DNA of 64,000 nt from the NCBI GenBank assembly GCA_037951105.1, contig JBAMJV010007701.1:1-64000 (forward strand), written 5' to 3'. This DNA is from Echinarachnius parma (Eukaryota > Echinodermata > Echinoidea > Clypeasteroida > Echinarachniidae). Of this stretch, positions 6,795 through 62,654 are shown piece by piece; position 1 is the stretch's first letter, and each line of letters begins with the position of its first letter. The notes beneath the pieces were generated by a model. The model saw nothing but the letters and a program-made list of their open reading frames with translations. It was not told the DNA's origin and made no database searches. Position numbers and translations under genes: made by a program.

Positions 6795-6993
6795 AATAGA
6801 CCGCTTCTGTAATGTATGCAAATAATATGCGTATGACATAAGACTCTCCGTTGGCAAGCTTAACAATAGCAACTAGGTTCGGCAAGCTAAGTTTGCCGGA
6901 GCTTGCCGGACATAGTTACTATTGTTAAGCTTGCCAACGGGGAGTCTGACGTCATACGCATAATATTTGCATACATTACAGAAGCGGTCTATT
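6795..6993. mobile_element. Hairpin MITE family F, full copy
   Basis: An almost complete palindrome. AATAGACCGCTTCTGTAATG at 6795 mirrors the right end at 6993, and the arms continue inward through TGCAAATAATATGCGTATGAC and GTTGGCAAGCTTAACAATAG to a short GC-rich loop. Truncated copies with the same arms sit at 12181-12361 and 13606-13786. Non-coding; as RNA it could fold into a long hairpin. Confidence 0.85.
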
Positions 6994-7129
6994 CCAGTTG
7001 TATTTCTTGTAAAAAGGGGGCGTGGTCTACTTAGCCCTGGTTTGCATTGTGATTCTTCAAGCAGCGGCAATTTGAATGGTCTTTTCATAAACTACAGACA
7101 ATTCCTTTTCAAATGAGGTATTTATTGCT

Positions 7130-7693: not shown

Positions 7694-8484
7694 TCCAGCC
7701 GGGTGCATTAAAATCGAAAATGTTGACTTTCGCAGCTTACTTTTTGAGCATTTGCGGCATTTTTGCAGCATTCATATCAGACTAGTTGCCACTGCAACGG
7801 TTTATCAATTTAGCCTTATATAGTGTTTATGGATCTCTATACCTTATGCCTTCCGAGAGAATCACATTTAGCCATATACACCGCAGGAGTAAGGAGTAAT
7901 GTGAGTTTGCATGAATTACATACAAAAAGTTAGTATTATGTCCTCTAATGACATGAGAAAACAAGTAACGTTTGCAACATTTTAGAAGCTGATAGCTGGT
8001 ATCACATTCTTTATTTCCTGAAACAAATAAAAACATATGATAAATAGATTTTGAGAAATTTTTGCTTTTTGTCAACCTGTCGTTCTACAATGGAACACAC
8101 TGTTTATGCATGATGCATTTTACCATGTTTCACGTAGGCGGCATTTTCATGGTAACGTGCAACTTTCTCTAAACTTCCAGTTTGAGATAGCTGAGATTTG
8201 TACCTTCAAAATGATACCAACAATTATTGGCCACCAGAGGGGTGCAACCAACTCCACAGTCTCCATTTTTAAACGACTTTTCAGATGTTGGCTCATGTAC
8301 TACATATTTTTCTGATGACGTTTGCGCCGTACTATGTGCCGTGCGCTAAGACCCCTTTTGTCGCGTTGAGGCCAAAATAGATTAAAGAACTTGGCCCTGT
8401 AACATAAAATTCATGATTAATCGTATGTAGAATTAATTTGTCGTACTAATTAAGTACTTAAATAAGTAGTTAACAATTATTTAA
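7694..8484. other. No gene; one dispersed-repeat fragment
   Basis: The part at about 7893-8015 (AGTAATGTGAGTTTGCATGA) resembles 27405-27560, so it belongs to a dispersed repeat. Nothing else identifiable. Confidence 0.5.
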
Positions 8485-8797
8485 TAATGAGGCATACCCC
8501 CCCCCCCCAAAAAAAAAAAAAACAACAACAACAACAGCAAAAAAGGAGTATTTGTATGAGCGCCGCTCATTTGAATCTCACTTTCAGCAAAACCAAAAAT
8601 GAAACGCTATTATATCTCGTTTTTAAGTTGGCTAAGACACAACTCCCCTCTTTTGACCACCATGTTGAAGTTGTGTGAGGCTCACCTCCGCTATTTAGTC
8701 CCCTGTTTTAAAGTTGGCTAAAGTACATCCCCGCCAAAATAAGAAAACAAAACCCGAATACCAACCGCCCCCACCACCCCCCCCCCCCCCCCCCCGC

Positions 8798-8834
<37 letters not shown>

Positions 8835-8840
8835 CACCGG
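8485..8840. repeat. Poly-C/poly-A and CA low-complexity tracts
   Basis: C10 followed by A and CAA runs at about 8497-8545, then a C-rich tract (8767-8795) followed by CA repeats (8797-8835). Unique AT-rich sequence separates them. Confidence 0.85.
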
Positions 8841-9619
8841 GATGCCTCCCCCTCCTCATTCAAGATGTCTCGCTTCAATGCCCCGTTTTACTTGAATTGA
8901 AGTTCATTATGTCCATAATCATTACATATAAAATTGTTTCCACTGGTTACATTTTACAATGTGTTGATATATCAAAATACAAATAAATCACATTCATAAA
9001 CAATATTATTGGACATCCATATCATTTCAATATAGTGTACATTAAATCAAACTAATGTACCATTTAACAGTTACATATTTTGTATAATTATTTTCATATA
9101 TATATAAACAAAGATCAATTTATTCATGTGCTCTCTTTTAAACAATATAATAACGTCATATCCCCTCGTTAATTGCATTCAAAATAGTTTCACTATAGAG
9201 TATTCAACAACATTAACATATTACGTATCATCATTTTCTATTTACCAACTAGACAGGTTTTATTATTAAGAGTCAAACTTTAACATTAGATCATTATATA
9301 TTAATTCTCAATATTTCAAACAAATATTTAATTACCAATAAATAATTACAAAACAAATCCTATCGTTGAATTCGCCAGCTTTATCCAATCAACAAAGTCG
9401 TGCATAAATACTTAATAATATTAATAACTATCAATACAAAATAATATAAAACAAGTCCTTATATTCATCATGTATTCAATTTAAATAATATCGTACAGTA
9501 TGTATATTGCATCAAGTGCGGGAACAAAAACAAAAACAACAACTTATATCCGCGAGTTCTACAAATTCTGAGAAATTAAAGACCAATGCTTAAAAAATGG
9601 AACACCCCAGTGTCTCGCA
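8841..9619. other. Very AT-rich sequence, nothing identified
   Basis: No open frames of note, no inverted ends and no splice-flanked segments. Possibly the 3' untranslated tail of the LINE that ends at about 9620 on the minus strand, but this cannot be shown here. Confidence 0.4.
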
Positions 9620-10520
9620 AAAGATGTTTACCTTCGAACTCTACCATTTTAAGTGTGTGTAGAATCGATAACGAATGAGTTTCTGAATCTTTGCCTGTTT
9701 GTTCGAGGTGCGCGGAGCCTGAATCCAGATCGATTGAATGTGTATTCTTCTCTCAATGTGTGGAACGGGTCTGTCAAGATTTGTTTGACTTTTGCAAGAA
9801 CCCTTTCTTCGTACAGTGATTGTATTTATGGCAATTGTCTACCCACGATGCGCTGTGACAGATTTCTAATGCATTCAAGTGTGTTTTCATTTCGTTGCGC
9901 TACATTACCAACATAGCAAATCAAATTGAAAGTAATGATACTTTGAATCAATGCCTCATATGACAATTCCCAAATTGTATTGTAAACATGTAATTTTCTT
10001 AATTGACGTTGAAAAGACAAGCGTTGGTTGCCTTTTTTTGTATAGCCTTTGTACATTGTCTGACCAATAAAGTGAGCTTGTGACCACTGTCCCCAAATAC
10101 TTATACTCATTGACCTGTTCTACACTTACCTCAAGTATCACTACTTGATCATGGTTAACACTATTTCTACGAAAATCGAACACAATTTCCTTTGTTTTTG
10201 ATACATTCAATTTCAAATGGTGTGCAACGCACCATACAACAAACCTTTCTGTGAACATCGTAAAGCTTGCTACATTATCATCTGTCATGAGACCAATAAC
10301 GACAGTGTCGCCTGCGTATTTAATTAGTTTGCATTCTTCATTTCCTTGAATCCCTTCACTTGTATAAATGGAAAAGGGAACGGGGATAGAACACATAATT
10401 GCGAAGTGCCTGTACTAATGGTTTTGACTGTGGATTGAAAGCTACTCATTCGAACAAACTGTATTCCAACAACAAGTTGTGAGCAAATTGTAAAATCTGG
10501 GGGTGGCAACGCATAGACAA
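9620..10520 (-). pseudogene. LINE reverse transcriptase, C-terminal fragment (dead)
   Basis: Minus-strand frames join into the second half of a non-LTR reverse transcriptase. In order they show TGTSQLCVLSPF (palm motif B region), a motif C reading KYAGDTVVIGL, then LKLNVSKTKEIVFDFRR, a YKYLGTVV thumb motif and a C-terminal tail ending in RIVGRQLP. Motif C in active enzymes reads YADD; here the first aspartate is replaced by glycine. At least two frameshifts (around 10350 and 10040) separate the pieces. The product would have primed reverse transcription of LINE RNA at a target nick. The style resembles CR1/L2/Rex-group elements; the exact clade is not determined. No endonuclease part is present, as expected of a 5'-truncated copy. 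Confidence 0.8.
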
Positions 10521-11700: not shown

Positions 11701-11953
11701 GTGTGGTTGAAGTTAGCACTCGTGTGTTGGTCGTTGCCAATATGCAAAGGAAATAGACTACAATTACCGTAGTGCGTGTAATATATACGTAATCCAAGCT
11801 GTCTGCAAATTGGCAAGATAAGCAAAAATAAACAAAAGCCCGATTTATACAGTCCCGGATACAGTCTACCTTACTGGATCGTAACAAAAAAGATATTAGG
11901 GAGTTTTCGCTAATGTGGACGAGAACGAGTTTCCCGTCCTAGAACGACCGTTT

Positions 11954-12180
11954 CAGGGTGGCCCAGAAATAACGGAACGGGGTATTTGCCATTGTGATAA
12001 TATGTTCACTGGATAGATAATCTTTTTAAAAGAAATTCGTTATTCCGAACACCCAAACAAAAACATTACTGTTGATGATATTAAAGTTCTTTTTAAAAGA
12101 TTATCTATCCAGTGAACCTAGTCTGTATGTTTCTTTATAATGGAAAGTACCCTGTTCCGTTATTTCTGGGCCACCCTGTA
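11954..12180. mobile_element. Mariner-type MITE J, copy 1
   Basis: CAGGGTGGCCCAGAAATAAC at the left mirrors ...GGGCCACCCTG at 12178. A second inner inverted pair (GTTCACTGGATAGATAATC) makes a double hairpin of about 225 bp. TA follows the right end, but no TA precedes the left end, so the duplication is not intact. The same end sequence occurs at 13379, 16812 and, diverged, at 35098 and 44703. Confidence 0.85.
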
Positions 12181-12361
12181 TAAGCAAATAATATGCGTAT
12201 GACGTAATACTCCACGTTGGCACTGTTTAACAATAGTAACTAGGTCCGGTAAGCTCCGGCATACTTATCTTGCCGAACCTAGTTACTATTGTTAATTTTG
12301 CCAACGGGGAGTCTATACGTCATACGAATATTATTTGCATACATCACAGAAGCGGTCTATT
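12181..12361. mobile_element. Family F hairpin, left end missing (copy 1)
   Basis: Matches the right three-quarters of the hairpin at 6795-6993, including GTTACTATTGTTAA and the terminal GAAGCGGTCTATT. The left TIR is replaced by the abutting mariner-type MITE, which implies that the MITE or a deletion removed it. Confidence 0.8.
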
Positions 12362-12460
12362 GGATGTAGTCAACCCGTGCTGTTCACTACTGTTCGCTGC
12401 CTTTGAACCATTTTCGTTTTTAGTTAACGCGCGTTCACAATGACGTCGTTCCCTTCTACA

Positions 12461-13181
12461 CACAATCATGACAAACACTCACACACACCTTACACTTTCA
12501 AACATACACATGCGCAAACACACGACCCGACTGAATTATTAAAACTCCAACACAGACACACACACACATACACGCATTCAATCACACAAAACACACACAC
12601 ACTTACACACACGTATATTCACACGCACAAACATCCACTCCCGCACGCACGCACGCACTTGCACTCAAACAAACAACAATGCACACAAACACCCCACACA
12701 TGCGCTCACACAAACACAAACCCTTACACACGCGTATACACACAAACACAACATTAATAAAACTCCCACACATACGCATACAGATACACAACACACACCC
12801 ACACAAACACAAACACATGAATGCACACTCACAAATGCACACAAACAACCACACACGCACATCCACAAACACACAAACACACGCACACACACTCATCCAC
12901 GCGAGCACTCAAACAAACACAAACACACGCACACACTCAAACAAAAACCCATACCCGTATACACATACGCATATACACACACGCACGCAGGCACTCGCAT
13001 TCCAACAAACAAACACATATACACTCACAAACACACACACACACACAAATGCGCACACACGTACACAAAGCCACAAACGCACACATTCAAACACACACGC
13101 ATACACCAGTTACATAATCCACCACACATACACATACACACGTATAAAACACACACACACACACACACACATATACATGTC
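12461..13181. repeat. CA-rich imperfect microsatellite block, copy 1
   Basis: About 720 bp composed almost only of CACA, CACG, CAAA and CATA words. It yields long spurious frames (Thr-His-rich on plus, Cys-Val-rich on minus) that should not be taken as genes. Confidence 0.95.
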
Positions 13182-13378
13182 GATACTTCTCTGATGACCT
13201 AATTCTGAAGACGGTGCACTGGATTTTCCGACGAACCTGAAATCGGGCAAAAATAAACAAAAGCCCGATTTATACAGTCCCGGATACAGTCTACCTTACT
13301 GGATCGTAACAAAAAAGATATTAGGGAGTTTTCGCTAATGTGGACGAGAACGAGTTTCCCGTCCTAGAACGACCGTTT

Positions 13379-13603
13379 CAGGGTGGCCCAGAAATAACGG
13401 AACGGGGTATTTGCCATTGTGATAATATGTTCACTGGATAGATAATCTTTTTAAAAGAAATTCGTTATTCCGAACACCCAAACAAAAACATTACTGTTGA
13501 TGATATCAAAGTTCTTTTTAAAAGATTATCTATCCAGTGAACCTAGTCTGTATGTTTCTTTATAATGGAAAGTACCCTGTTCCGTTATTTCTGGGCCACC
13601 CTG
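13379..13603. mobile_element. Mariner-type MITE J, copy 2
   Basis: Copy of 11954-12180 inside the tandem duplication, with one base change (GATATCAAAG). It arose by the duplication, not by a separate insertion. Confidence 0.85.
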
Positions 13604-13605
13604 TA

Positions 13606-13786
13606 TAAGCAAATAATATGCGTATGACGTAATACTCCACGTTGGCACTGTTTAACAATAGTAACTAGGTCCGGTAAGCTCCGGCATACTTATCTTGCCG
13701 AACCTAGTTACTATTGTTAATTTTGCCAACGGGGAGTCTATACGTCATACGAATATTATTTGCATACATCACAGAAGCGGTCTATT
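13606..13786. mobile_element. Family F hairpin, left end missing (copy 2)
   Basis: Duplicate of 12181-12361 with the same truncation. Confidence 0.8.
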
Positions 13787-13885
13787 GGATGTAGTCAACC
13801 CGTGCTGTTCACTACTGTTCGCTGCCTTTGAACCATTTTCGTTTTTAGTTAACGCGCGTTCACAATGACGTCGTTCCCTTCTACA

Positions 13886-14604
13886 CACAATCATGACAAA
13901 CACTCACACACACCTTACACTTTCAAACATACACATGCGCAAACACACGACCCGACTGAATTATTAAAACTCCAACACAGACACACACACACATACACGC
14001 ATTCAATCACACAAAACACACACACACTTACACACACGTATATTCACACGCACAAACATCCACTCCCGCACGCACGCACGCACTCGCACTCAAACAAACA
14101 ACAATGCACACAAACACCCCACACATGCGCTCACACAAACACAAACCCTTACACACGCGTATACACACAAACACAACATTAATAAAACTCCCACACATAC
14201 GCATACAGATACACAACACACACCCACACAAACACAAACACATGAATGCACACTCACAAATGCACACAAACAACCACACACGCACATCCACAAACACACA
14301 AACACACGCACACACACTCATCCACGCGAGCACTCAAACAAACACAAACACACGCACACACTCAAACAAAAACCCATACCCGTATACACATACGCATATA
14401 CACACACGCACGCAGGCACTCGCATTCCAACAAACAAACACATATACACTCACAAACACACACACACACACAAATGCGCACACACGTACACAAAGCCACA
14501 AACGCACACATTCAAACACACACGCATACACCAGTTACATAATCCACCACACATACACATACACACGTATAAAACACACACACACACACACACATATACA
14601 TGTC
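13886..14604. repeat. CA-rich imperfect microsatellite block, copy 2
   Basis: Duplicate of 12461-13181, two bases shorter in its final CA run. Confidence 0.95.
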
Positions 14605-14756
14605 GATACTTCTCTGATGACCTAATTCTGAAGACGGTGCACTGGATTTTCCGACGAACCTGAAATCGTGCATGAACTAGTGCTCAGAATGGCCAGACGA
14701 CGAGAGAGAACGTAAATGACGTAATTTATCGCCTAAATGACGTCATTTCTTCAAGT

Positions 14757-16689: not shown

Positions 16690-16800
16690 TTGCGGAGGCT
16701 GCAGCTCACCCTATTGTCCTATTGAAATTGTATCCATGGCAACCATTCATGGTTTGGTAGACAACACTTAATCCTGAATACTTCAGGCAAGTCTCATCGC
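16690..16800 (+). repeat. Dispersed repeat fragment containing TATCCATGGCAAC
   Basis: CTATTGAAATTGTATCCATGG and the following GTTTGGTAGACAA recur in the same orientation at about 28390-28460, linking this stretch to the family that forms the large inverted repeat. Confidence 0.7.
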
Positions 16801-16811
16801 ATGCTGTAATA

Positions 16812-17361
16812 CAGGGTGGCCCAGAAATAACGGAACGGGGCACTTCCCAAAATAAAGTAACAAAACGAACATGTCCATCGGATAGGGTGTCCTTTCCAAT
16901 GAACAACGATACCAAGAAAAGTAATTTTGGACGTGTAGTTTTTGTTTTAGGGCGCTTTGAGTGAGACCATGTCAGGCTCCTATTTTTGTCAATTTTTACC
17001 AAGTCAGTGTCTGATAAATGAGACTTACTGCCCGTCATACTAGTGACCAATTAAGCCCATTCTCTCGGCACCGCTCGGCACACAGCTGAATGCACACTAA
17101 CAATGGCGCGCGGAATATTCGCGTGTTCAATGGTATGTAGGGCAATAAGTCTCATTTATCGGGCACTGACTTGGTAAAAATTGACAAAAATAGGAACCTG
17201 ACATGGTCTCACTCAAAGCGCCCTAAAACAAAAACTACACGTCCAAAATTACTTTTCTTGGTATCGTTGTTCATTGGAAAGGACACCCTATCCGATGGAC
17301 ATGTTCATTTTGTTACTTTACTTTGGGAAGTGCCCCGTTCCGTTATTTCTGGGCCACCCTG
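16812..17361. mobile_element. Mariner-type fold-back element M
   Basis: Bounded by TA on both sides and by CAGGGTGGCCCAGAAATAAC inverted ends. Each arm extends more than 200 bp: CATGTCCATCGGATAGGGTG, ACCATGTCAGGCTCC and AAATTTTTACCAAGTCAGTG-type words all reappear inverted in the right half. Only a central piece near 17040-17140 is unpaired. The TA duplication and ends point to the Tc1/mariner (IS630) group. Non-coding. Confidence 0.9.
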
Positions 17362-17544
17362 TAGAGTACAGATGCCATGACGTCACAAAAACCTTTTTTT
17401 TTAGAATTTTCAAATTTGAACTTCATTTTAAGAAAGAGCATACAAAATAATGTCTAAATACCGAAAATCAACTGAATATGTTAAGTAATGGCTGAGATAT
17501 GCCCATCCGAATGAATTTTACTTCAATGGGCAATCAGTGTTATA

Positions 17545-18907
17545 GTGTGCTGTGTGTCAATTCCGTACTTAAGTACAAAATTTAAGCAATTTACTTAGTA
17601 TTTGGCTTAAGTAAATTACTTAGCCAAAATTGAGATTCAATTCATCGGCTAAGTATTTTACTAAGTAAAGTATGATTTTGTCTTAGTAAATTACCTAAGT
17701 ACTTTACTTAAGCAAGGTTGCTATTCAAATCCCTCATTGTGACTTAGTAATTTGCTTAAACTTAGGAAAATCATTAGGACACTTAAGCATAGCTTAACGC
17801 TGGAATTAGTGGGAAACGGGTATTTAATATGGTAGTGAAACGACATTAAATGCTCCGAAATAGAAATGCAACCACCTTCCCCTGAAAGTTATAATTTAAG
17901 ATGATATAAGCGCATTATCAAAGCAAACTGTGCGCAGTGCGCTTCAATTCAGGCGCATTAAGAGTCGTTGCGCTCATGAAATCACAGATTTATACGCGCC
18001 AAAAGGCTGTGTACAGTGCACTATTTAAGAACAAAAATAGTGAATGGCAATCATACAGGGAAAAGAAAAAAATCAAGCTGTTACCGAATATTATCTGCTT
18101 GATTTGTTCCTCTTTTGTTTACTTGTATGGATGTTGTGGATATAATGTGATCTACTATTGTAGTAATCCATGCCATTTTGGTGGACATATTCTTCAAACA
18201 TTGCAAGTGATATATTTATGGGACATTAAATAATGGTCACAGCCGGCGGGTAAGTTATTTGTAATACTTCTTTATCATACAAGTATATTCCATGTTTGAA
18301 CATAGTTTGCTGGTTCGTTATTGGACTGGAGGCATCATTATGGATCATATTATGTAAAAAATCAATAACTGTCTCCACTTTCGGAGCTTCAAACGATCAA
18401 ACTTTCACAAGAGCATAGCCTAGATCAATTAGGCCTGCAGATTATGGATCCGACAATCGACATGGCATACCTCATATAAACTCAAGAAAACCATAAGCAA
18501 GCAGTGATTTTATTCCTCGACTTTGATGTTTTTCTGCTCATGTTGAAGCTTTGACTGCTCCGCTCGTAATAACGTAACGTTTCAATCAAGATTGCTGTTA
18601 TGATCATGCAATTCTGTTTTAACACATGAATTCCCATTGACAAGCGTCGCACAAAATTGGTTTGCGATTTTGTTTTAACACGTGAATTCCCATAGACAAG
18701 CATTGCACAAAATCGTTCGCGGATACCATCAGCACTAATTTACAAACCATTGTGACGTCACAAGTATTTTACTTAGATGTTGTCTTATGTAAGTAAAAGT
18801 CTAAAATGCGATTTCAATACGAGATAAGTAAAGTTCTTAGCTTAGCAATTTACTTAGTAAATTTCTTACTTATTCTAAGTACGGAATTGAATACCGGCCC
18901 AGAGCAC
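17545..18907. mobile_element. TIR element N with ACTTAG/CTAAGT subterminal repeats
   Basis: Inserted in the left arm with TATA on both sides (17541-17544 and 18908-18911); the homologous right-arm site near 28190 is empty. Ends share GTGYKCTG and TCAATTCCGTACTTA in inverted form. Both ends carry dense copies of ACTTAGTAAATTACTTA-like words for about 150-250 bp, a layout typical of hAT- or P-like subterminal binding arrays. The middle (about 17770-18740) has short frames with no recognised transposase. Confidence 0.8.
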
Positions 18908-19256
18908 TATATAGTCCATGAGCCAAGTCCAAAAAGAGCCTTATTTTAGGATCTGGCTACACCCCCGGACGGGCACGGAAAATTTGGTATCAGAGGAAAG
19001 GTCATGAACCCAGCTTCCGAGAAATGCTAACCCCCCAACAAAATATTTGCTCGTAACCATGGCAACGCCCATTATGTGACACATGCCTTTTTTCACATGA
19101 AATACAACTGAAATTTAGAAAATTTAGTTACTTACCAATTAGTTAATCTTTAAAAATATAAATGTATGTTTCCAATGATTTAAACACTATTAATGAAATG
19201 ACAAAATCATTCCGGACAGTCTGACATAATTTGTAAGTAAATATTAATCAAATTGT

Positions 19257-20045
19257 GTTGCCTAGCAACATAATTTTCCCTAGCAACCAATTTTACCTTG
19301 CATATATGCTTGCCGTTTTCTTTATTCAAGGTGATTTTCTTTCCAGAATTGAATATAAAATTCTCTGAGCCATTAATTTCACTTTGATGGACTTCATTTT
19401 GATTCTAAAGTGATAATTTTCAAGAAAAATAAGCATTTCAACAATTTTCTCTGATACAGGTGTTTGTTAGTATATGCCAAACCAAACCACCATTTTCCTG
19501 AAAAATCTATTTTGCTGTACATTTGTGTACAATCGATTAAGACAATAATTATAACTTGTAAACTTAAGGTTTACCAATATATATGTTTACTTTTTGAAAA
19601 TATAAATAGACAAGACGTAACATTAGTAAGCTTGATTGTGCAAAGCTAATTGAATATATTTGATTATCCATGGAGGCAAATGTGTTGCCTAGCAACGACT
19701 CTTACATAGCAACCACATATATGACATATTTCGAGCATTGTTACCCTTCCTTAGAAATGTTCTGCTTTATAGGCCTGTATTACTTTGAGTACTCGGTTAA
19801 CATTGGTTAAACACATTTGCAATACTTAAGTTTATCCATGGATACCGGCACGTTGCCTAGCAACACTATTCTACCTAACAACCACACATCTAACATACAT
19901 TTCAAGGGTTATTTTACCATTCCTGGGCACATTTTTTGCTGTATAGGCCTATATATTAGTCAAAGTAGATTCTTGATTAAACTTGATGGTGCAATATATG
20001 AAGACTACTTAGTTATCCATGGAGATCAGTACGTTGCCTGGCAAC
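19257..20045. repeat. ~175 bp satellite with X-box-like palindromes, left arm
   Basis: GTTGCCTAGCAAC occurs at 19257, 19684 and 19852, and GTTGCCTGGCAAC at 20033. Each is followed about 10-20 bp later by a half-site such as TAGCAACCACACATCTGAC and preceded by ATCCATGGA. Unit spacing is 167-182 bp for the last three. The 13-mer fits the RFX X-box consensus GTNRCC-N-RGYAAC exactly. Whether any RFX protein binds is unknown. Confidence 0.8.
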
Positions 20046-20155
20046 CACATTTTATCTAGCAACCACACATCTGACTTATATTCCAGTTTATTTCATCGTC
20101 TTTCTTTGGATTTTTTGCGTTATATATCATGATTACTTTACATATAGCGTGTATA

Positions 20156-20211
20156 CATGTATGTGTGTGTGTGTGTGTATGTGTGTGTGTGTGTGTGTGC
20201 GTGTGTGTGTA

Positions 20212-20283
<72 letters not shown>

Positions 20284-20290
20284 AGTGTCT
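20156..20290. repeat. GT microsatellite
   Basis: About 135 bp of nearly pure GT on the plus strand with a few interruptions (TATG, GCGT). Confidence 0.98.
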
Positions 20291-20454
20291 GTGTGTATCG
20301 GTCTGTACAAAATTGACACTAAGCTTGGCAATGTATTGATTTGAATCCAATTATTTTGTTATTATTATAATAAATGATACCATAATCAGATTAGATACTG
20401 CTCACGAGGAGTTGATTAAATAGAGCCAAATCTACACCATGTTACACATACTAA

Positions 20455-20900
20455 TTGTCACTATCTTCGTCGGCTTCATCTGAATCTGCATCAGTATCTC
20501 ATACCGTATCTGGCAGTCACAACAACCGCATGCATCTGTGCAGCGGAGTCCATTGGCACGGCACTCACATCACCGTGTATGACAGTTTGTGCGACATTTG
20601 TAGGCAACCAATCCCAGAATGTCATTTGGAGCCGGAGCCTCTTTAGTCCAGTCAACCACTAGTCTGCCGTCAATGAGTTTCCATCCCTCTCCCTCAGGGC
20701 CAGTTATCTCTGGGGCTGCAGTCAGAGCTACCTTCCAGACAGCAGCCTGGTAATTCGCCCTCTCAATTGTTAGCGATATCCTGTTATTTTTTTTTAGAGG
20801 ACTGGTGTATAAAACGTGCATCCCCGAGTTCTTGCGGAACAAGCCATTGAAGCCCTTGGCGGATTGTAGCAGCAAAGTGTGTTTGTCAAGAAGCACAGGA
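20455..20900 (-). pseudogene. Fragment of a transposon-borne protein with CXC-type Cys-rich tail
   Basis: The minus strand encodes RANYQAAVWKVALTAAPEI, then PEGEGWKLIDGRLVVDW, then a cysteine-rich end with VAYKCRTNC, an in-frame TGA, and CECRANGLRCTDACGC. This combination (ANYQAA.W...PE..GW....G.L..DW, then C-rich CxC...NGL.CT..C) is familiar from uncharacterised multi-copy proteins of cnidarians, echinoderms and molluscs that resemble the CXC/tesmin motif at their C terminus. Function unknown. The stop codon and the abrupt fusion to RTE sequence at about 20900 mark it as a relic. Confidence 0.6.
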
Positions 20901-21890
20901 CGTCCATCTATGTAGATGTCAGCAGGAACGGCATCTGATCATGGAGATTTGTCGTTTTAGAGCTAATTAGTAGCCTTCTTGACCTCAACATTGTCGGGTG
21001 AAATATTCATGATCAGTGGGATTTAATCGGGGGCATCTGGTCGATTGAGGATGGCTTCAAAGTGTTTAGTCCATCTCTTCAGTATATCCGGCTTCTCAGA
21101 AAAGGGAGATAAGGGAGTTGACCGATCAGAACTTAGAAGGCGAGACCTCCCTGACGACTGAGGTCCATATAGGGTGTCGATATCCCCGTAGAACCGCTTT
21201 GAGTCAGTATAGCCCTGGATTTCATACTCGCTTTGAATGTAGCCACGAGTCCGGTTTGACCTGTATTTACGAGCACTGACTAGTGTAGGCCCCCTTTTTA
21301 GAAGCATATTACTGATGGATAATTTTGATGAGCACGATGTTTACGTCTATGATTTTCGGTGGATTTGTTCATCATGCCCATCTAACCAGTCATTGCATCT
21401 TGCGGGTAGACGTTGATAGACATTGCGGGTGAACAGTCATTCACAATTTGTTTCAGTGTTGTCAACAACGTGTAAAATGTCTGCCAGCCGATCACCTAGA
21501 TCTAAGATGAGTTTTCCAGCCACATCAGGATTCTTCAGTGTATACATTGTTATGCTCCTTTCCCAAAGAGGCTTTGGTCTAATTTGGAGCTTTATCTTAT
21601 ATATATGATGCGCCTGGGTGTCTGTCCAACAGTCTGCACCACACATATAATTGGTTACTCTGACATCCTGCACATCTCATTTTACTGACAATGCCGTCGA
21701 TGAGGTTTCAATGTGTAGGTGAGCGAGGATGCATATAATTGTTTTGTTGCGAGTGATGGGTGAAAGATGGCATTTGTTATCTCTAAGGCATGTGCTTCGC
21801 AGGTCTGTAAAAGAAGTAATCGATTGTTGTTGCGGGTGCCCACTCCATTCTTCCAGTGACACCTTCCCATAGGCATAGTGATGAATCATG
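20900..21890 (-). pseudogene. RTE-type LINE: endonuclease C-terminus to pre-RT (3' half of split element)
   Basis: Minus-strand pieces in several frames read, in order: endonuclease segments like GVGTRNNNRLLLLQTCEAH, CGADCWTD (the metal/DNA-binding end of the APE-like nuclease), a linker LKNPDVAGKLILDLGDRL, EIQGYTDSKRFYGDIDTLYG followed by LKRWTKHFEAILNRPDAPD, and a decayed start of the RT domain (DAVPADIY). These are hallmarks of the RTE-type elements often labelled 'craniofacial development protein 2-like'. The missing N-terminal half of the nuclease lies at 23690-24290, beyond the inserted LINE. RT motifs proper are absent because the copy breaks into other transposon sequence at about 20900. 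Confidence 0.75.
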
Positions 21891-21904
21891 ACTTCTTTAT
21901 CTTT

Positions 21905-23690
21905 TTTTCTTACTGCCCATTATGCCTCCTGGCACATAGGGCAGCAAGAAAAGTCTTCCGATCCTGGGCCAGTCTCTGGATGGTTCCCCATGTGTGGTTC
22001 AGGTCTTTAATCTCCCCTTCCACAGTTCTTCACCAAGTGTTTTAGGACGTCCCCTCTTTCTTTTGCCTTCTGGTGTCCAGTGGAGGGCTGTTCGTGTGAT
22101 GTCATCTATGTTCTTTCTCATCACATGTCCGATCCATCTCCACCTTCTTCTCATGACGATGTTCTCCATGCTGTCTTGTCAAACGAAGCACTGTATTTCA
22201 AACGAAGCACTGTACGCTCAATGCCATCAAGACTTGATGGCATTGGGCGTACAGTGCTTCGTTTGAAATGGTGTTTGGCCAGAAAATGCGACATATTCTT
22301 CCCAGACTCTTTGTGTGGAAGACCGACAGCTTATTGAGGTCGTTTTTCGTCATTCTCCAACATTCAGAGCCGTACAGAAGAGTGGATAAGGACACAGCTC
22401 TGGTACAATTTTAGCTTGGTCTTGGTGCTGTACTGCTGTGATCTCCATACATTATTGAGCATTCTGAATGCATTTCTGGCTTTGTTAAGACGGTTCTGAA
22501 TGTCTTTACCTGCGCCTCCATCGTGCCTGACAGTGCTTCCCAAGTAAGTAAACTCCTCAATTATAGGTAGATCTTCCCCGTTTGCTTGTATTGGTAAAGG
22601 GTCCGGGATGTTCAGGGTCATCATCTCTGTTTTCTTCTGGCTGATCTTAAATCCAATTTGCTGGGCAAAGTCACTGAGTCTGGATGTTTTTTCTTGCATA
22701 TGCTGGTGGGTGTGTGAAAAAAGAGCGAGATCATCTGCAAAGTCGAGGTCCTCAAGTGTAGAAAAGAGGGTCCATCTTATGCCTTTTTTTGGTCTTCAGT
22801 TGCCTGTCTCATCACCCAGTGTATGGCGATATTGAAGAGTAGTGCTGACATGACACATCCTTGCCTAACTCCAGTCTTCACTTGGAACTTATGATTACTG
22901 TTTCCGACTCTGCATGAGAAATTAGTGTAAAAGCTCTTAATTACAAGAACTAGCTGCTCTGGTATCCCATATTTGCGTAATATTCTTCAAAGGCTGTCTC
23001 GGTGGATGCTATCGAATGCTTTTTCAAAGTCAACAAAATTAATATAAAGTTTCCTCTGCCATTCTGTGCATTGCTCTATGATATTACGTAGTGCAAATAT
23101 CTGGTAAGTGCACGCTCTTCCCTTCCGAAACCTGCCTGTTCCCTTCTGAGACTTTGGTCAACAGAATCTGTGATACGGGTAATAATTATCTTTGCCAGTA
23201 TTTTACTTGGTATTGAGAGTAGAGTGATCCCACGCCAGTTACTGCAGTTCTTTAGGGATCCCTTCTTTGGTAATTTTACAATAACTCCCTCTGACCAATC
23301 ATCAGGAACTATCTTCCTTTCCCATATAGCTGTGAAGAGTGGCAGAAGGATTTTTGCTGCTAATTCTGGGTCTGCCTTAAAAAGTTCTGCGTTGAGATTG
23401 TCAGAGCCAGGGGCTTTACCATTTGTTAAGGATTTAATTGCAGCTATTACTTCTTCTTTAGTTGGTGGTATGCTGCTGACATCCAAGTCATCCTCTGCCT
23501 CTTGTATATCAGCCTCTACTGTCGGTGGTGGTCTATTCAGCACCTCGCTAAAGTGCTCGGCCCATCTAGCTTCCTGTTCTGCTTCTGTTGTAAGAAGCCT
23601 CCCCTGCTTGTCTTCAATAGGTGAATTTGTGGTTCCTCTATACTTGCCGCTAATTATTTTGGTAATCTAATTATTTTGGTAATCAGAGTA
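21905..23690 (-). pseudogene. LINE inserted into the RTE element; RT nearly complete but frameshifted
   Basis: On the minus strand from 23690 downward it reads: [74 protein letters not shown] (motif A), TGVRQGCVMSALLFN (motif B), LEDLDFADDLALF (motif C, FADD intact), EEFTYLGSTVRHDGGAG, LLYGSECWRMT, and a tail RRRWRWIGHVMR ... KRKRGRP ... TWGTIQRLAQDRKTFLAAL before a stop near 21910. That is the RT plus C-terminal domain of a common invertebrate non-LTR family. It lacks its own endonuclease, so it is 5' truncated. At least four frameshifts or stops and one inverted duplication (22198-22265) inactivate it. The 3' end is A-rich (AAAAAAAGATAAAGAAG). Confidence 0.85.
22198..22265. repeat. Local inverted duplication of LINE coding sequence
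   Basis: About 34 bp of the LINE (AACGAAGCACTGTACGC and the following bases to CATCAAG) is present as an adjoining reverse complement, making a tight hairpin. A further partial direct copy (AACGAAGCACTGTATTTC) sits just before it at 22180. This is the footprint expected of template switching during repair or reverse transcription. Confidence 0.85.
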
Positions 23691-24290
23691 AGTCATTAAA
23701 GCCACTGAACAGCATTTGCTTGTCATTTCTGACCACTGAAGTAAGGAATATATCCAGTTCTTCATAGGATGTCTTTCACATCATCAGGGTTGGTCATTGT
23801 TGGAGCATAAGCATTTATCAGGGAAGCCATTCTCTCATTCTGTATCGTCATCAGGATATTGTCGATACATGTTAGTAGATCAATTTGCTAACGAGATAGC
23901 TCTTAACTACAAAGTCAGCTCCAGCTTCAAGTTGCTCTTGATTGCTACCCCGGCCACACCAGAAGAAATTGTATCCACGTTCTGTAAGGTATCCCTTGTC
24001 AGCCGAACGAGTTCAGAGCGAGTTGCAATACCTTGCGAGCTCTTTAACAACCAGAGCTGTTCTCTCGTCCGGTCTATCGGCAGTAGGTTTGTCCACATTA
24101 TATATACCAGTGGTGAGAGGTATTACCGTTCTTTTCTTTCCTTGGGTCAGCCTAAACCAGCCTGCCAAGCATGTTGCCCAGTGGGTGGCCGCTATTCGCA
24201 TGTTAACACATACGAGGAGCCAAAGGTGAGGGATGGGTACTATATTGTATGCAATGTCAAGCGACCTATCACAAGCGACAAGCAATTAAA
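23690..24290 (-). pseudogene. RTE-type LINE endonuclease, N-terminal half (5' part of split element)
   Basis: Minus-strand frames give DRPDERTALVVKELARY, then LADKGYLTERGYNFFWCGR, then a YAPTM-like stretch with TNPDDVKDIL and RNDKQMLFSGFND. They correspond to the first half of an APE-like endonuclease of an RTE-type LINE, where the active protein has SETR and GDFN motifs. Here the catalytic context is eroded by stops and frame changes. The protein homology resumes at 21890, downstream of the inserted LINE, so these are two halves of one element. Confidence 0.7.
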
Positions 24291-24299
24291 ATATGTAAA

Positions 24300-25179
24300 G
24301 AACCTCTTTCCATAAGCACCCCTATGCCTAGTCAAGCAAAGTCAAGGGAAATGTGTTTTTGTTTGTGCATGCCGTTTGTGATCAATGAACAATCTAGCAG
24401 AGAGGCTATAGTAATGTAGACTAAGACCGGCAAGCTATTGGCAGATCGCTGTGTGATGATATCAAATGATGATTGTCTTCTCTTGTTCCACCTCTATATT
24501 AAGGACAATAGTTTTTTTTACCTTGACCTACTAATCTCATTCTTACATTTGCTAGGATACTGTGTTAGTTTCAGATCATCCAAGCCAATTAAACCAAAAC
24601 AATGCATACAAATGCTGTAGATTATATAATCCGTTGTCTTAAAAGAGACTTCTGAAAAATCATGCTAAAACATCATCAAATCAATTCTGAACCATTTCAT
24701 CTACCCTTTCATAAGTCATGTGTAAACATTCAATGGTAAATTAATGTCATGTAACCGAATGCTCTTCCATACTATTTGGTATATTCAAATATTTGAGAAC
24801 CACTTAGGTTCCAAGTAAGTTTTTAAGATTTTGACAAAGTTTCTAGATCGATCCCTTAAATGGAGCTGTTTGGTTAATGTTATTTGTCGCCTAAAATGTT
24901 TTATACGCAAACTTTCGACATGATATTTTTAGTATGGTGTACACACTCCGCTGATGTCCACCATCTCTATTCACCATCCTTTAACATGTTGTACCAAATA
25001 TAGACACAACATACATACTCAGGACAGTCCATTTTGAAAGGGAGGTCTTGATGCATGACCTGTTTTTAATAATTACATCTACGTTATGTTGCTATGTACA
25101 CTCCCTTTCAATTAAGTAAAGACAATGTAACGTTTATGACTTTAAAAGTAAGCTGAGTATGTACAGTAATGCACGATTA
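24300..25179. other. AT-rich sequence, nothing identified
   Basis: No transposon ends, exons or repeats recognised between the LINE nest and the right inverted-repeat arm. Confidence 0.5.
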
Positions 25180-25252
25180 AGGCAGAAAAGTCATGAGGAA
25201 GGGCAACACCCATTGGATATAGGCCAAATGAATTGGTGCTAGGCTAGATAAT

Positions 25253-27049
25253 GTTGCTAGGCAACCGTCATACAAATCTGTATTGATAATCCACAGTATT
25301 ACATGTGTGCTGCACAAAGAAATGTTAAACTTATAACCCGAATATACAGCAAAAAGGTGCTCAGAAAGGTCAAATGATCCCCCTAATATAATGTCGAATG
25401 TGTGGTTGTCATGCAAAATGCTGTTGCCAGGCAACATGTCAGTATCGATGGATATTTGTATTGTTTAAAATGTGTATTAATAGTTATTTGAGTACTCAGA
25501 GTTATACAAGTCTATAATAAGAGCCGAACATTGCATTAAAGTGATTCAGGTAAAGTGTCAGATATTGCACAAAATGAAATTTGAGACTTCAATCCTATAT
25601 CAATATCATTGTAAAATACAATTGAAAGATTTGTGAAAGTTTGAAAGAAAACGAACACTGTTAACCTAGTGAAAAAAACGAATATTGAGTTCATATTTTA
25701 TCACCGAATACTGATGGCCTGTCATGGATTTGTAGCAGTTATACTTGTTATCAACCGTTGACGATATCCGCATGTTTACAGACTGTACAGAATTCGTGGA
25801 ATTTGCGCACTTTGGATCAAAGTTCAGTAGCGTCTTGAATGTTTCCCACGCGTGCTAGCTGGCTCGGACCAAAGACTGTTCTGGGACGTGTTTAGCTACA
25901 ACAATTCTACTTTTTTTGAAAAGCGTTGATCAACGCTTTTGAAATAATGATTTTCAATGATAATTATCTTCATACTAAAGGGACATTTGACAAAATCTAA
26001 CCCTACTTTATTCTTCTCTTACAATAAGCTAAACAACAAGGCAGAAGAGAAACGAGGAAGCTCCAAGTATTTTTCGTGGAGTTAGACACTTTACCTGGAT
26101 CACTTTAAAGTACAAAACAAGCCATCTATATATTGATATACATCGAAAGGTTAATTATCGAAAACCCCTTTGACCTTGAAACATTACCGTCATCGTTAAA
26201 GCTGTTCTCAGACAAAGCCACACCTGTAGTGTTTATTTATATTAAAAATCGGGAATATTGCTCATGTTAATTCCGAGAAATTTGATTTAGGAGTGTTGAG
26301 TACTGGATATAGAACTGTGGAGCTTGTTAATGGGCCTTAATGTAGGACAATACAGCAATAAATGTGCCTAGGAAAGGCAAAATAACCCTCTGAATATATG
26401 TTAGATGTATAGTTGCTAGGGAAAATAGTGTTGCTAGGCAACATGACGGTATCCATGGAGAATCTGAAGTATTTCAAATGTTTGTGTAACCAATGTTAAC
26501 CGAGTTCTCAAAGTAATACAGGCCTTTATAACATTTCTAAGGCAAACAAAACTGCTAAATATAGGTCATATATGTGGTTGCTAGGTAAAAGTCGTTGCTA
26601 TGTAACATAATTGTCTCCATGGATAATCATATGTACTATTTGTTTTGCACTATCAAGGTTATTAATTGTATGTCTTGTATATTCATACTTTTAAAACTTA
26701 ACTTGCATATTTGTAAACGTCTACAAGTTATATTGTTTTAATTTGTTCTTCTTTTTTTTCTTTTTTTTCCTAATTGTGCAGGAATGTACAGCAAAATGGC
26801 ATTTTCATGAAAATGGTGGTTTGGTTTGGTATATCCTAACAAACACCTATATCATAAATTATTGTTGAAATGCTTTTTTTTCTTTTATTGTTTCACTTTA
26901 GAATCAATATGAAGTCTATCAAAGTGAAATTTATGGTTCTGATAATTTTTTATTCCGTTCTGAAAAGAAAATCACCTTGAAAAAAGAAAATGGCAAGCGT
27001 ATATGCAAGGTTAAACTGGTTGCTAGGAAAAATTATGTTGCTAGGCAAC
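25253..27049. repeat. ~170 bp satellite with X-box-like palindromes, right arm
   Basis: GTTGCTAGGCAAC at 25253, 26430 and 27037, GTTGCCAGGCAAC at 25423, and a decayed GTTGCTATGTAAC at 26594, each followed by ATGGATA-like sequence. Spacing is 170 bp (25253 to 25423) and 164 bp (26430 to 26594); larger gaps hold MITE A and unrelated sequence. Mirror image of the left-arm satellite. Confidence 0.8.
25536..26108 (+). mobile_element. MITE family A, copy 2 (full length)
   Basis: 573 bp from TTAAAGTGATTCAGGTAAAG to CTTTACCTGGATCACTTTAA, lying inside the right arm with TTAA at both edges. It provides the uninterrupted reference for copy 3, which is split by a 5.4 kb insertion. No coding capacity. 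Confidence 0.9.
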
Positions 27050-28469
27050 ACAATTTTATTAATATTTACTTACAACTTATATCAGACTGTATGGAATGAT
27101 TTTGTCATTTCATTATTAGTGTTTAAATCATTGGAAACATACATTTACTTTTTTAAAATATTAAATAATTGGTAAGTTACTATTTTTTTCTAAATATCAC
27201 TTGTGTTTCATGTGAAAAGGGGCATGTGTCATATAATTGGCGTTGCCATGGTTACGAGCAACTATTTTAATGGGGGTTTAGCATTTATCGGAAGCTGGGT
27301 TCATGACCTTTCCTCTGATACCAACTTTTCCATGCCCGTCCGGGGGTGCAGCCAAATCCTAAAATAAGGCTCTTTCTGGACTTGGCTCATGGACTATAAG
27401 GGGTAATGAGAGTTTGCATGAATTTCATACAAATATTTATGATGTATGCAGTAAGGATTTTGTTATTGACCTTGAGGTGAACCTTAAGTGACCTTAATAT
27501 GTATAGGTCACTCATGATCTTTAAGGAGTTTAAAACTGATATCATACGTATCGTCATTCCCTACAAAATAAAAGCCTTTCAAGACTGGATGACGAGAATA
27601 TAGTCCGGTTTCATTAAAAATACAGTTTTCTGTACATTGACATCGTTATCATATATCCGCGTTTCCATGGCAACGGGTAGACTGTCCGATGTCACGTGGT
27701 GGAATTGAACTCTGGAGGCCATGTGCGTTCCTCCATTACAAATGTGTAATAGTATAGCTCAGAAAACCGACTACAGAGAAATAACAAGCCAAAAATCCAC
27801 TAAAGTTCTAATTTGTGACAGTAGTATACAATTAGGGGTTAATTAGCGGTGATCCTTGGGACCTAAAAACGGTACCCTCACCTGAAAACATGTTCTAACA
27901 GAAATACAGTCCTTAAATGTCTGAGTATATGAAAAATCAGTAGTATTTCTCATGTAAGTTTCGAGAAATATGATTTAGGAGTATGGAGTATCAGAAATAG
28001 CTCGCTAGTGAGTCAGTTTAAACATGTATCACGTGATTGGCGTTGCCATGGTTACGAGCAAATATTTGTTTGGGGGGTCAGCATTTCTTGGTAGCTGGGT
28101 TCATAACCTATCCTCTGATACCACAATTCCCGTGCCCGTCGGGGGGTGCTACGGATTTCATTTTTTTCAGGCCTCGGCTCATGGACTAATAACACTGAGT
28201 GCCTATTGCCAAACAAATTCATTCGGATGGCCATATCTCAGCCGATACTTAACATATTCAATTGATTTTCGGTAATTGGACATTATTTTTGACGCTTTTT
28301 CGGAAAATGAAAATCAAATTTGAACATTCTAAAAAAAGATGTTTATGACGTCATTGATGACATCACACTTCACCACTCTATTGCGGTGACCTATTGAAAT
28401 TGTATCCATGGCAACGATGCATTGTTTGGTAGACAATGATTTCTCATGAATACTCCTGGTAAGCCTCTA

Positions 28470-34991: not shown

Positions 34992-35097
34992 GAAAATAAG
35001 GTACACATTCATAAAGTTGAGTGACAACAGTGATAGACGGATATGAAAACCTATATAGAGCTTACTTATCGCAATTGCCGCCTATATTATTGTAATG

Positions 35098-35440
35098 CAG
35101 GGTGGCCCAAAAAATCGGAACGGGCACAAAATATAGTAAAACCTTTTTATGTCCATCGAATGGGGGTCTTTCGAATACAAAAACGATACCAAGAACAGTA
35201 TATTTGGTCGTGTTGTTTTGTTTTAGGACGCTATGAGTGACACCATGTCAGGTTCCCATTTTTTTCTTCAATTTTGTATCAATTCAGTGTCTCATAAATC
35301 GCTGCGCAGTTTATGCCCGTCATATCATCGATCAACGAGCAATACGCGTACCATTGATAGTGTGCATTTAGCTGTGTGCCAAAAGAATGGGCATTGGGAA
35401 GTGCAGCTGAGCTCTGTTACGGTTTGTTTGGGCCACCCTG
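35098..35440. mobile_element. Diverged mariner-type element related to M
   Basis: Starts CAGGGTGGCCCAAAAAATCGG and ends GGGCCACCCTG followed by TA. The left half matches the left arm of the 16812-17361 element (CCATCGAATGGGGGTCTTTC, ACACCATGTCAGGTTCC, TCAGTGTCTCATAAATCG), but the right arm is shortened, so it no longer folds fully. Confidence 0.8.
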
Positions 35441-37229: not shown

Positions 37230-37468
37230 AATGCGAATGTGTCTATGTTTATGAAACTAAGTATGTAAATTAATAAACAATAACAAAACATCACCAATAC
37301 AAACAAGGAAATACATAATAATATAATTTATTATTTGTTTAGATGTGTTAAAATCACTATATCATAATGATATTAAATATATCCACAAAATCACATATCA
37401 AGCTTATCCCTCATCATAAACAGAATTCAAATAGTCTCTCAATGATGGAAAAGTAGTTCTACACACTA
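37230..37468. other. AT-rich spacer, no feature
   Basis: Short unique stretch between the endonuclease fragment and the palindromic element. Confidence 0.5.
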
Positions 37469-38051
37469 AGAAAAAAAGGTACAACTTTGCACCTTTAAAG
37501 GTGCAAAGTGATGCAACACTGGCGGCTCTTTTAAAGGTACAACTTTGCACCCTCAACATAGGGTGCAATTTTGCACCCTTTCTTGAGGGTGCAATCTTGT
37601 ACCTTTGGGGTACAACTTTGCACCTTTAAAGGTGCAAAGTGATCACTGGCGGCTTCTTTTTAGGTACAACTTTGCACCTTTAAAGGTGCAAAGTCATGCA
37701 CTTGCGGCTCCTTGTTAGGTACAACTTTGCACTCTTAACGTAGGGTGCAAAGTTGCACCCTTTCCCGAGGGTGCAATCTTGTACCTTTGGGGTGCTTAAT
37801 TGCACCCTCGGGGAAGGGTGCTATTTTGCACCCTACGTTGAGGGTGCAAATTTGTACCTAAAAAGGAGCCGCCAGTGATCACTTTGCACCTTTAAAGGTG
37901 CAAAGTTGTACCCCAACGGTACAAGATTGCATCCTCAAGAAAGGGTGCAAAATTGCACCCTATGTTGAGGGTGCAAAGTTGTACCTTTAAAAGAGCCGCC
38001 AGTGTTGCATCACTTTGCACCTTTAAAGGTGCAAAGTTGTACCTTTTTTCT
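37469..38051. mobile_element. Hierarchical palindrome element (GGTGCAAAGTTG words)
   Basis: Ends AGAAAAAAGGTACAACTTTG and CAAAGTTGTACCTTTTTTCT are perfect inverted repeats with TA on each side, suggesting a Tc1/mariner-type target. Each arm is about 250-300 bp and is itself made of small palindromes: CTTTGCACCTTTAAAGGTGC, GGTGCAATTTTGCACC and others, alternating with a GATCACTGGCGGCT or AACACTGGCGGCTC spacer. The left arm holds one extra internal duplication of about 90 bp. A decayed extension of the same words continues to about 38170. No coding capacity. Confidence 0.9.
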
Positions 38052-39933
38052 TATAAAGGTGCAAAGCGGTGTCACACTGGCATCTCATTTTGCTCTTATG
38101 GGGTGCAATCTTGCCACTTGATAGGTACAAGTTTGCCCCTTTAAAGGTGCAAACTGCTGTTACACTGATGGTTCTGTAGTTTCTAAAATCTAAATCAAAC
38201 ATTGATCTAAAAAAAGAAAGAGGTAAGCTGATACTATTTACTTGTTTAAGTAGATTTTAATCAAGGCAAAACAAGATCGCGATGTACATTACAAGACACA
38301 CTTCTTTGTGCATACATGTATATACATACATCCACATAATTAACAAGAAATTTACTATGTTTGTGTGTCATCAATTAAAGTGATCCAGGTAAAGTGTCAG
38401 ACATTGCGGGAAAAATGACATTTGAGACTTCAATCCTATATCAATATCATTGTCAAATACAATTGAAAGATTTGTGAAAGTTTGAAAGAAAACGAACATT
38501 TGTTTACCTAGTGAAAAAACCGAATATTGAGTTAATATTTTATCATCGAATACTGATGGTCTGTTGTAGATTTGTTGCAGTAACAATCATCCGTTTGATT
38601 TTGACGATATCCGCAGCCGTGTATACATACAGACGGTACGGAATTCATGGAATTTGCGCACGCTCGGCCCAAAGTTCAGTGGGTCGGGAAAATTTCCCAC
38701 GCGTGCTGGCCCGGACGTGTTCAGCGACGACAATTGTACTTTTCTTATCAATACCGTAGCTAACGCTTTTGAAATAATAGATTTTCAATGATAATTATCT
38801 TCGTACTAAAGGGACATTTGAAAAATCTAACCCTATTTATTCTCTGGGGGTGTATTCTAAAAATGTAGCGGAGATAAAAAATTTATCTCCCTAAAATAAA
38901 ATCGCGCTAAAATGTTTAAAAATCGGTATTCTGAAAAAGATTTAAGGAGATTTTAACGCTTACGCCAGTGCGCGTTGAAAATTAAAGCCACGCCCCTTGC
39001 TGCTCCTTTGACCAATGAAAATATCGCTTACATCGATATTTTTAATCATTTGCATAATTATGATTTTAAGACCACGTGGGAATTACGCCGTGATTAAAAT
39101 GTATATTGCAAGTTTATGTATACTATTTGTTTGACGTAATCAAGATATAATAATCATAATGATAAAGTCGGAACATGTGAAAAAAAGATTCGTGTGGTCT
39201 CAAAGATTCATGTTGGAGTCGAGTTCGAGGCCGTTTTTGTCAAACTATTATTACATGTATTTAATGGAAGTGTTTTTTTTCTTCAAGTTGTCTTGTCATT
39301 GTTTTTGTGTGGTTGTGTTGTCAGATTCAATTCAATTCAATAATAAGGGTTTATTCAGATGACGTTCTTGCAGCCGAAGCTGAATTGCATGGTCATTTAC
39401 AAGGTAAAAAGCATCATTATGGTTAAAATACAGCAATGCACAGGTAAACATCAAATATAGATTACATATCAAAGAGTAAATAGAAATATACTAGATAAAT
39501 TCGTACGTATAATTAAAAAGCAACATAATTAAACATCAAAACAAATATACGACATGCATGCGAGTTACTGTTGTGAATAATAATCATTTAAAATGCGAAC
39601 AAAATAAGGAATAGAGCTATTCTTAAATCGGTTGGTTTTACAATTAAATTGAGTATATTTCTGAACATTTCGTAAATTAAAATTGACAATTCTTTGACTC
39701 GGCAGCCACGAGGAACAAAATTCATGTTTTTCTAAGTTAATGGCAAAATCAAAACAAAGTTTATTCCTACGTTCCTCCAATGTTAATAAATTGCACAATT
39801 CCAAAGCATGATTATATGATTCATAATAAAGTCCCAAAATAATTCTACATGCCCGTTTTTGTATTCGTTCAATATCATCTGTTTGTTTGATTGTTAAATT
39901 GGAATGAAAAAGTGGTGCACAATACTCTAATAA

Positions 39934-61605: not shown

Positions 61606-61670
<65 letters not shown>

Positions 61671-62609: not shown

Positions 62610-62654
<45 letters not shown>

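Follow-up and report, generated by a model that had tools for sequence, protein, structure and literature searches.

Plant transposons of the Ac and En/Spm type carry subterminal transposase-binding repeats, with many copies of a short motif lying near both ends. The DNA transposon described here, at positions 18912-28188 of a 64,000-nucleotide stretch of the Echinarachnius parma genome (contig JBAMJV010007701.1, positions 1 to 64,000; this whole stretch is called the window), shares this layout, and differs in that its motif is a palindrome with an offset half-site, for which binding is putative. Long inverted arms of internal tandem repeats and an apparently non-autonomous state are shared with Tetris, a foldback element of Drosophila virilis, but Tetris, as the part of PMC4079207 drawn on here describes it, has a repeat unit of about 220 bp against about 165-180 bp in the window, and target duplications of 8-10 bp against 3 bp. 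The 3-bp duplications agree with the 3 or 4 bp given for AcademX elements in an excerpt of PMC10045372, the difference being that the gene pieces here gave no convincing Pfam or PDB match. The motif also fits the restricted X-box consensus of RFX, RTNRCC-N1-3-RGYAAC in the section of PMC2375033 used here, and differs from such a site in having a fixed partner half-site, an orientation and a recurring distance from the terminus within elements.

X-box-like arrays in the inverted arms of a DNA transposon

A motif scan of the window found six exact copies of the 13-mer GTTGCCTAGCAAC and three near copies in two facing arms (Table 1), together with one further copy with one mismatch at 6650. With up to two mismatches allowed, the scan gave 16 matches against 0.97 expected, a number never reached in shuffles; this total takes in neighbouring half-sites, the copy at 6650 and two places scored on both strands. 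The array that a sequence-only reading of the same DNA had described is therefore real, and the intervals of ~165-180 bp that it reported hold for 19684/19852/20033, 25253/25423 and 26430/26594. Related words of the pattern GTTGCCATGG also exist, although that reading placed them 2-5 bp off: the pattern is fitted at 19053, 27242, 28042 and 56331, and with one mismatch at 16730, 27661 and 28402. The two arms hold 13 matches, at 11 places, to the restricted X-box consensus against 0.07 expected (left 0.02, right 0.045), whereas the rest of the window has 2 matches at one place (56331) against 1.0 expected. Most 13-mers had been said to fit the X-box consensus, and eight of the nine in the arms do so in its restricted form, as do the three 14-mers; the copy at 26594 fails. 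The contrast is smaller with the loosest X-box consensus, which gives 10 matches against 1.3 expected in the left arm, 14 against 4.1 in the right (shuffle maximum 12) and 61 against 75 outside the arms. Two spacer forms, of 1 bp and 2 bp, occur among the window sites within one element, and Rfam gave no match in the window at gathering thresholds.

The array makes up the subterminal part of a DNA transposon of the cut-and-paste type, and its repeated module recurs in the inverted arms of three related families. Across the 1.2-Gb assembly (14,790 contigs, the window being contig C7690) the 13-mer occurs 1576 times, against 16 for a palindrome of the same composition. A reversed-pattern control (19 matches) was set aside as the sole yardstick because the reversed word holds two CpG, and was replaced by the same-composition palindrome and by a Markov expectation of about 5-11 per strand. 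We examined 20 fetched stretches, mostly at clustered 13-mer sites, and 30 short loci. Among the 20, family A (L034, L036, L040, L041, L045, L047) is about 80-95% identical to the window element over long parts and family A2 (L031, L033, L048) about 70% identical to the window element; L032, L035, L037, L042, L043 and L046 form family B, and L038, L039, L044, L049 and L050 are unrelated contexts. The termini are sharp, with TAGTCCATGAGCC in A, TAGGTGAGCGGCGAGAGGCC in A2 and TAGTCTAGGCGATYGGTGC in B, and identical 3-bp flanks border all 12 elements that have both outer ends in view: ATA in the window, AAT in L034, TAA in L040 and TAT in L047 for A; TAC in L031, AAA in L033 and TAT in L048 for A2; TTT in L032, TTC in L035, GTT in L042, CTA in L043 and AAA in L046 for B. 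This count leaves aside L036, L037, L041 and L051, which have no complete pair of outer ends, and L045, which has no terminus. Terminal inverted repeats (TIRs) with short direct target duplications, the mark of a cut-and-paste DNA transposon, were thus found in 12 of the 12 complete elements, and the earlier suggestion of an array spread by a transposon was correct.

The window element itself has terminal repeats starting with TAG. Similarity to L034, L040 and L047 ends at, or within a few bases of, both its left and its right terminus, and similarity to L036 ends within 5 bases of the right one. An inner right terminus, at 27396 in the window, is also present in L034, L036, L040 and L047, which means that the right end was compound in the master copy already. 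L020 was considered as a fourth family; its arm is related to A, but its terminus was not found. On C352, C799, C1438, C1720 and C1823 the 13-mer module and the canonical X-box 14-mer GTTGCCATGGCAAC recur about 0.75-0.8 kb apart, possibly as a fourth family. Viral contigs yielded neither the exact module pattern tried nor a confirmed relative of the element gene, and literature searches on the 13-mer and on RFX with transposons listed nothing relevant.

A conserved two-part module

The conserved unit is longer than the 13-mer and consists of the palindrome, then 10-11 bp, then the half-site TAGCAAC. A profile built from the nine window units with the 13-mer blanked (cut-off E up to 1e-4) found 84 units in 35 sequences, that is 34 loci and the window, from families A and A2 and fragments; weaker matches, family B modules among them, were left out of the 84. 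In these units the majority base has a mean frequency of 0.94 across the 13-mer, 0.92 across the half-site CCTAGCAACCA and 0.94 across the T-run that separates the two. The corresponding values are 0.80 for a CCATGG lying upstream, 0.72 for the upstream flank (columns 3-29, which take in the CCATGG) and 0.68 for the downstream flank. A rank test against the remaining columns gave p values of 1.4e-6 (13-mer) and 1.6e-5 (half-site), the columns and units being non-independent. The 13-mer is exact in 45 of the 84, while GTTACATAGCAAC and GTTGCCTGGCAAC each account for 9. The 13-mer is therefore more conserved than most of the unit, and this deep comparison did not give the equal rate of change across the unit that had been named beforehand as fatal to the sequence-only reading; the description as the conserved core of a satellite is half right. 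The constraint extends beyond the X-box-like 13-mer to the half-site and the T-run, which are conserved to an equal degree.

The shallower comparison of the window with five copies gave differences at 10 of 456 positions in the 13-mer (2.2%), at 20 of 432 in the half-site, at 321 of 5288 in the remainder of the units and at 1042 of 18383 (5.7%) outside them. The deficit in the 13-mer is not good evidence of constraint, because mutations of the window are counted up to five times and the sites were chosen mostly intact; by our estimate, choosing intact window sites could alone yield about this deficit.

Exact two-part modules number 686 genome-wide over two patterns, of which 570 are A-type (exact palindrome with TAGCAAC within 8-14 bp) and 116 B-type (the opposite-strand form), with controls of 0 for each. 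Read by eye among 100 listed of the 570, the A-type spacing is 11 bp in 84, 10 bp in 14, and 8 bp and 12 bp in one each; in all 100 listed B-type modules it is 10 bp, also by eye. When three B copies were aligned with the window A element, the matches were short or weak and almost all spanned modules (the best being 76% over 75 bp), with the exception of one in reverse-transcriptase sequence. We ruled out "outward-facing" 13-mers as a separate arrangement, since the 13-mer is nearly palindromic and the family B module reads inward on the opposite strand. Outside the element, positions 6630-6689 of the window hold a relic of the two-part module (GTTTCCTAGCAAC plus CCTAGCAGCC).

In the fetched elements of the three families the modules read inward in the inverted arms and lie at recurring distances from the termini. 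Four left ends of A have sites at 141-142 (14-bp form), 344-346, 772-783, 940-951 and 1121-1146 bp from the left terminus, although the scan of L034 showed no fourth site (940-951). On the right, the first site is 132-142 bp from the outer terminus and the next ones are at about 933-952 and 1139-1159. Counted by arithmetic from the inner right terminus, the window sites lie at 141, 347, 790 and 954 bp, much as in the left arm. For A2 the distances are 335-348 in five of six ends and 744-773 in six of six. One end of B has 131, 283-284 and 445-446 (5/5), and the other 127+141, 294-297 and 461-470 (6/6, counting L051); three of the latter have an additional site at 632-635. The whole is an ordinary but well-defined transposon structure, whose two-part subterminal site is unusual, strongly conserved and fits the X-box consensus.

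Candidate binding partners of the module

We favour, with moderate confidence in the reading as a whole, the module as a putative binding site for a transposition protein encoded by the element. The transposase or a partner would bind the module and assemble both ends before cutting, and repeated sites at ~150-180 bp steps could raise occupancy and help the ends to pair. Non-autonomous copies such as that of the window would retain their sites because intact relatives mobilise them in trans, and the X-box match would be a likeness of two short inverted half-sites and not evidence of host control. A function for the element rather than for host RFX is suggested because position and orientation relative to the terminus recur; in addition, sites are found at both ends, which a promoter would not need, and the spacing is rigid at 10-11 bp though 8-14 bp was allowed. 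The reading also draws on the target duplications of all 12 complete elements, on the conservation of palindrome and half-site in units located through their flanks, on the weak A-to-B alignments that lie almost wholly across modules, and on the 98% protein likeness of the module-bearing L051 to a place with an uninterrupted 1517-aa frame. If the module does bind an element protein, it would provide a subterminal code of sequence, spacing, direction and distance for a little-studied transposon group.

Several points weigh against this reading. The loci were picked for the exact 13-mer, mostly clustered, and its conservation is partly selected for; the half-site is the cleaner evidence of conservation because it was not selected for. 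The 1-bp and 2-bp spacer forms are both tolerated by an RFX-type dimer according to the published consensus (PMC2375033, in the part used). The recurring distances are not independent observations, as the site positions are inherited with the arms, the later right-arm sites of family A fit only from the inner terminus, and the first site is missing in one of six A2 ends. Moreover, 21 of 86 assigned exact 13-mers lie outside the families, exceeding the ~16 expected genome-wide. These figures come from the first 100 listed 13-mers. Of these, 65 belong to loci of A, A2 or B or to fragments related to them (C155 is assigned through its arm similarity only, C496 and C594 solely through a gene match close by), 21 stand in other contexts and 14 are unassigned, one of the last (C352) having the two-part module; X-box scans of this genome should accordingly mask these repeats.

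It is unlikely, though well within reach, that RFX of the host binds the modules, having been recruited to support expression, in ciliated or sperm-forming cells for instance, or to serve as a cofactor of transposition, while the copies scatter the arrays. The excess of restricted-consensus matches in the arms, with chance-level numbers elsewhere in the window, and the two spacer forms within one element would be expected of such binding. The canonical 14-mer GTTGCCATGGCAAC is enriched (193 places genome-wide, control 0) and the genome has 11 matches on 8 contigs to the RFX DNA-binding domain (PF02257), so real RFX sites may exist in this host. RFX, however, would have no need of a set orientation, a rigid 10-11 bp to a half-site or placement at both ends, and the relevant portion of PMC2375033 reports that a match to the loosest X-box consensus in front of a gene does not predict control by RFX. 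Nor do the isolated 13-mers, in our view, prove that host RFX sites exist. Of the first 30 places, 13 are not in these families, and some are in open frames of at least 100 aa (L015, L017 and L023, for example); the 13 contexts have no common flanks beyond weak local matches, and the sole context searched genome-wide (L016) is repetitive, its 116 matches (from 40 scored out of 265 candidates) falling in many cases on one end of 52 bp. If RFX binds instead of, or as well as, an element protein, the families would be a natural supply of RFX-site arrays, with the potential to rewire genes of cilia or the germline.

Transposition ends that are themselves built from RFX X-boxes, a full site plus a half-site at fixed distance, with host RFX dimers driving expression or pairing the ends, strike us as quite unlikely; were this so, hundreds of ready-made arrays, given the 686 exact modules, would be scattered in one genome. 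That the module is a neutral satellite, its core kept through recent unit copying and devoid of binding function, is improbable. The tandem-like units and their ~165-180 bp steps would suit such a satellite, as would a shallow 13-mer deficit no larger than selection of intact sites from the 5.7% background might give, but the palindrome and half-site stand far above the flanks over the 84 units, and the same module sits in family B, whose arms otherwise align weakly. A host regulatory array under selection at this locus, as in the idea of a link with ciliary genes, is extremely improbable, as it has the consensus match and nothing locus-specific in its favour, and the window copy is one of many, with insertions and a broken gene.

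Nested insertions, element gene and other repeats

The transposon inserted, with a 3-bp duplication, into a palindromic miniature inverted-repeat transposable element (MITE). Positions 17375-28360 had been taken for one large inverted repeat; there are instead two nested things, the transposon and the split halves of an unrelated MITE, and a single inverted repeat is ruled out, the outer arms being those of a palindromic MITE whose arms elsewhere lie 16-38 bp apart. A genome search with the left MITE arm scored 40 of 1580 candidates, among them that of the window, and produced 51 matches; on 11 contigs two copies face each other at a distance of 16-38 bp, and a single arm is listed at the other scored places. 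In the window the halves are 10.6 kb apart with inserted DNA between them, and the right ATA duplication of the transposon adjoins the right half. A second insertion, about 17557-18897 (limits by eye), also lies between the left half and the transposon.

Left and right arms of the transposon are ~84% identical, whereas the same arm is about 90-94% identical across copies, so the arms diverged in the ancestor of the family and the element has since moved as a whole. When 40 of 369 candidates for the initial 339 bp of the left arm were scored, among them that of the window, the 39 other places matched at 93-99%. The word "old" used by the sequence-only reading is only partly right: it suits the divergence between the arms, which predates the copies.

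Table 1. Features of the transposon and its surroundings in the window
Feature	Position	Strand	Remarks
Palindromic MITE, left half, split by transposon	17377..17543	+	
Target-site duplication ATA, left	18909..18911	.	flank GCACTATA precedes TIR
Family A DNA transposon with later insertions	18912..28188	+	TIR TAGTCCATGAGCC[A/G]AG[T/G]CC at 18912+ and 28188-
Left subterminal arm, inner limit approximate	18912..20150	+	inverted match 18910-19954 to 27398-26340, 83.6%
14-bp X-box-like word GTAACCATGGCAAC	19053..19066	+	141 bp from left terminus
13-mer palindrome, exact	19257..19269	+	
13-mer palindrome, exact	19684..19696	+	
13-mer palindrome, exact	19852..19864	+	
13-mer, one mismatch (GTTGCCTGGCAAC)	20033..20045	+	
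Broken end of transposon gene, cysteine-rich tail	20435..20935	-	
Stretch missing from five compared copies	21895..23693	-	reverse-transcriptase pieces inside
Right subterminal arm, inner limit approximate, compound end	25200..28188	-	older inner terminus 27396; direct repeat 27223-27349 / 28023-28149
13-mer palindrome, exact; half-site degenerate	25253..25265	-	
13-mer, one mismatch (GTTGCCTGGCAAC)	25423..25435	-	
Stretch missing from five compared copies	25543..26104	.	similar to repeats 38374-38843 and 406-667
13-mer palindrome, exact	26430..26442	-	
13-mer, two mismatches (GTTACATAGCAAC)	26594..26606	-	
13-mer palindrome, exact	27037..27049	-	
14-bp X-box-like word	27242..27255	-	141 bp from inner right terminus 27396
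14-bp X-box-like word	28042..28055	-	133 bp from outer right terminus
Palindromic MITE, right half	28189..28354	-	
Target-site duplication ATA, right	28189..28191	.	flank ATAACACT behind TIR

Six open frames of the window, all of them inside the element, were searched against Pfam, which gave RVT_1 above the Pfam cut-off at 22364-22795 and below it at 23076-23666. The B copies have a broken gene, of which the B-type locus L051, itself a carrier of modules, retains a 422-aa open part, and contig C10150 has an uninterrupted 1517-aa frame, 98% identical to L051 over 371 aa. A search with the L051 protein gave 115 matches (99 of 738 candidates scored); 20 of these, on 18 contigs, are in frames of at least 500 aa, and 8 of the 20 in frames longer than 1400 aa. 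The gene pieces had no convincing relative in Pfam or PDB, the matches besides reverse-transcriptase being below the Pfam cut-off or having a PDB E above 1, and the 422-aa part matched nothing in Pfam (E up to 1) or in PDB (E up to 10). The cysteine-rich tails of the A gene (copy L045) and the B gene match weakly (34% over 41 aa, E 3e-4). The large gene here, with a HEEAD...DTD...GCDT pattern and a cysteine-rich tail, is presumably that of an Academ-like element of invertebrates, which we treat as a lead and not as a result. Academ transposases carry an XPG-type nuclease; a literature search on Academ with XPG listed nothing relevant. The superfamily is probably, though unproven, Academ-like; helicase and nuclease tell the two Academ lineages apart, according to the excerpt of PMC10045372.

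Among the other repeats, an 81-bp direct repeat (16715-16795 / 28387-28467, 83%) that contains GTATCCATGGCAAC surrounds the entire nest, and positions 16810-17363 form a palindromic MITE with CAGGGTGG ends and TA flanks, with relatives at 35091-35380 and 11954-12180 and also in L014, L034 and L040. The A2 element of L048 sits between 99%-identical direct repeats (1-914, 6087-7001) about 6 kb apart, and L044 (1189-2884 / 8206-9901) and L049 (1762-3750 / 6715-8642) have long direct repeats of 97-99.9% identity, each with one 13-mer lacking the half-site. Elsewhere in the window are a tandem duplication of ~1.4 kb with CA-rich repeats (11822-13249 / 13247-14672, 99.65% identical), large direct repeats of about 86-96% identity (48899-50044, 49193-51060, 52228-54087, 54029-55148), a 1-kb tandem repeat (61131-62130 / 62138-63115, 96% identical) and, at 37467-38053, a dense nest of TTGCACC hairpins and palindromes.

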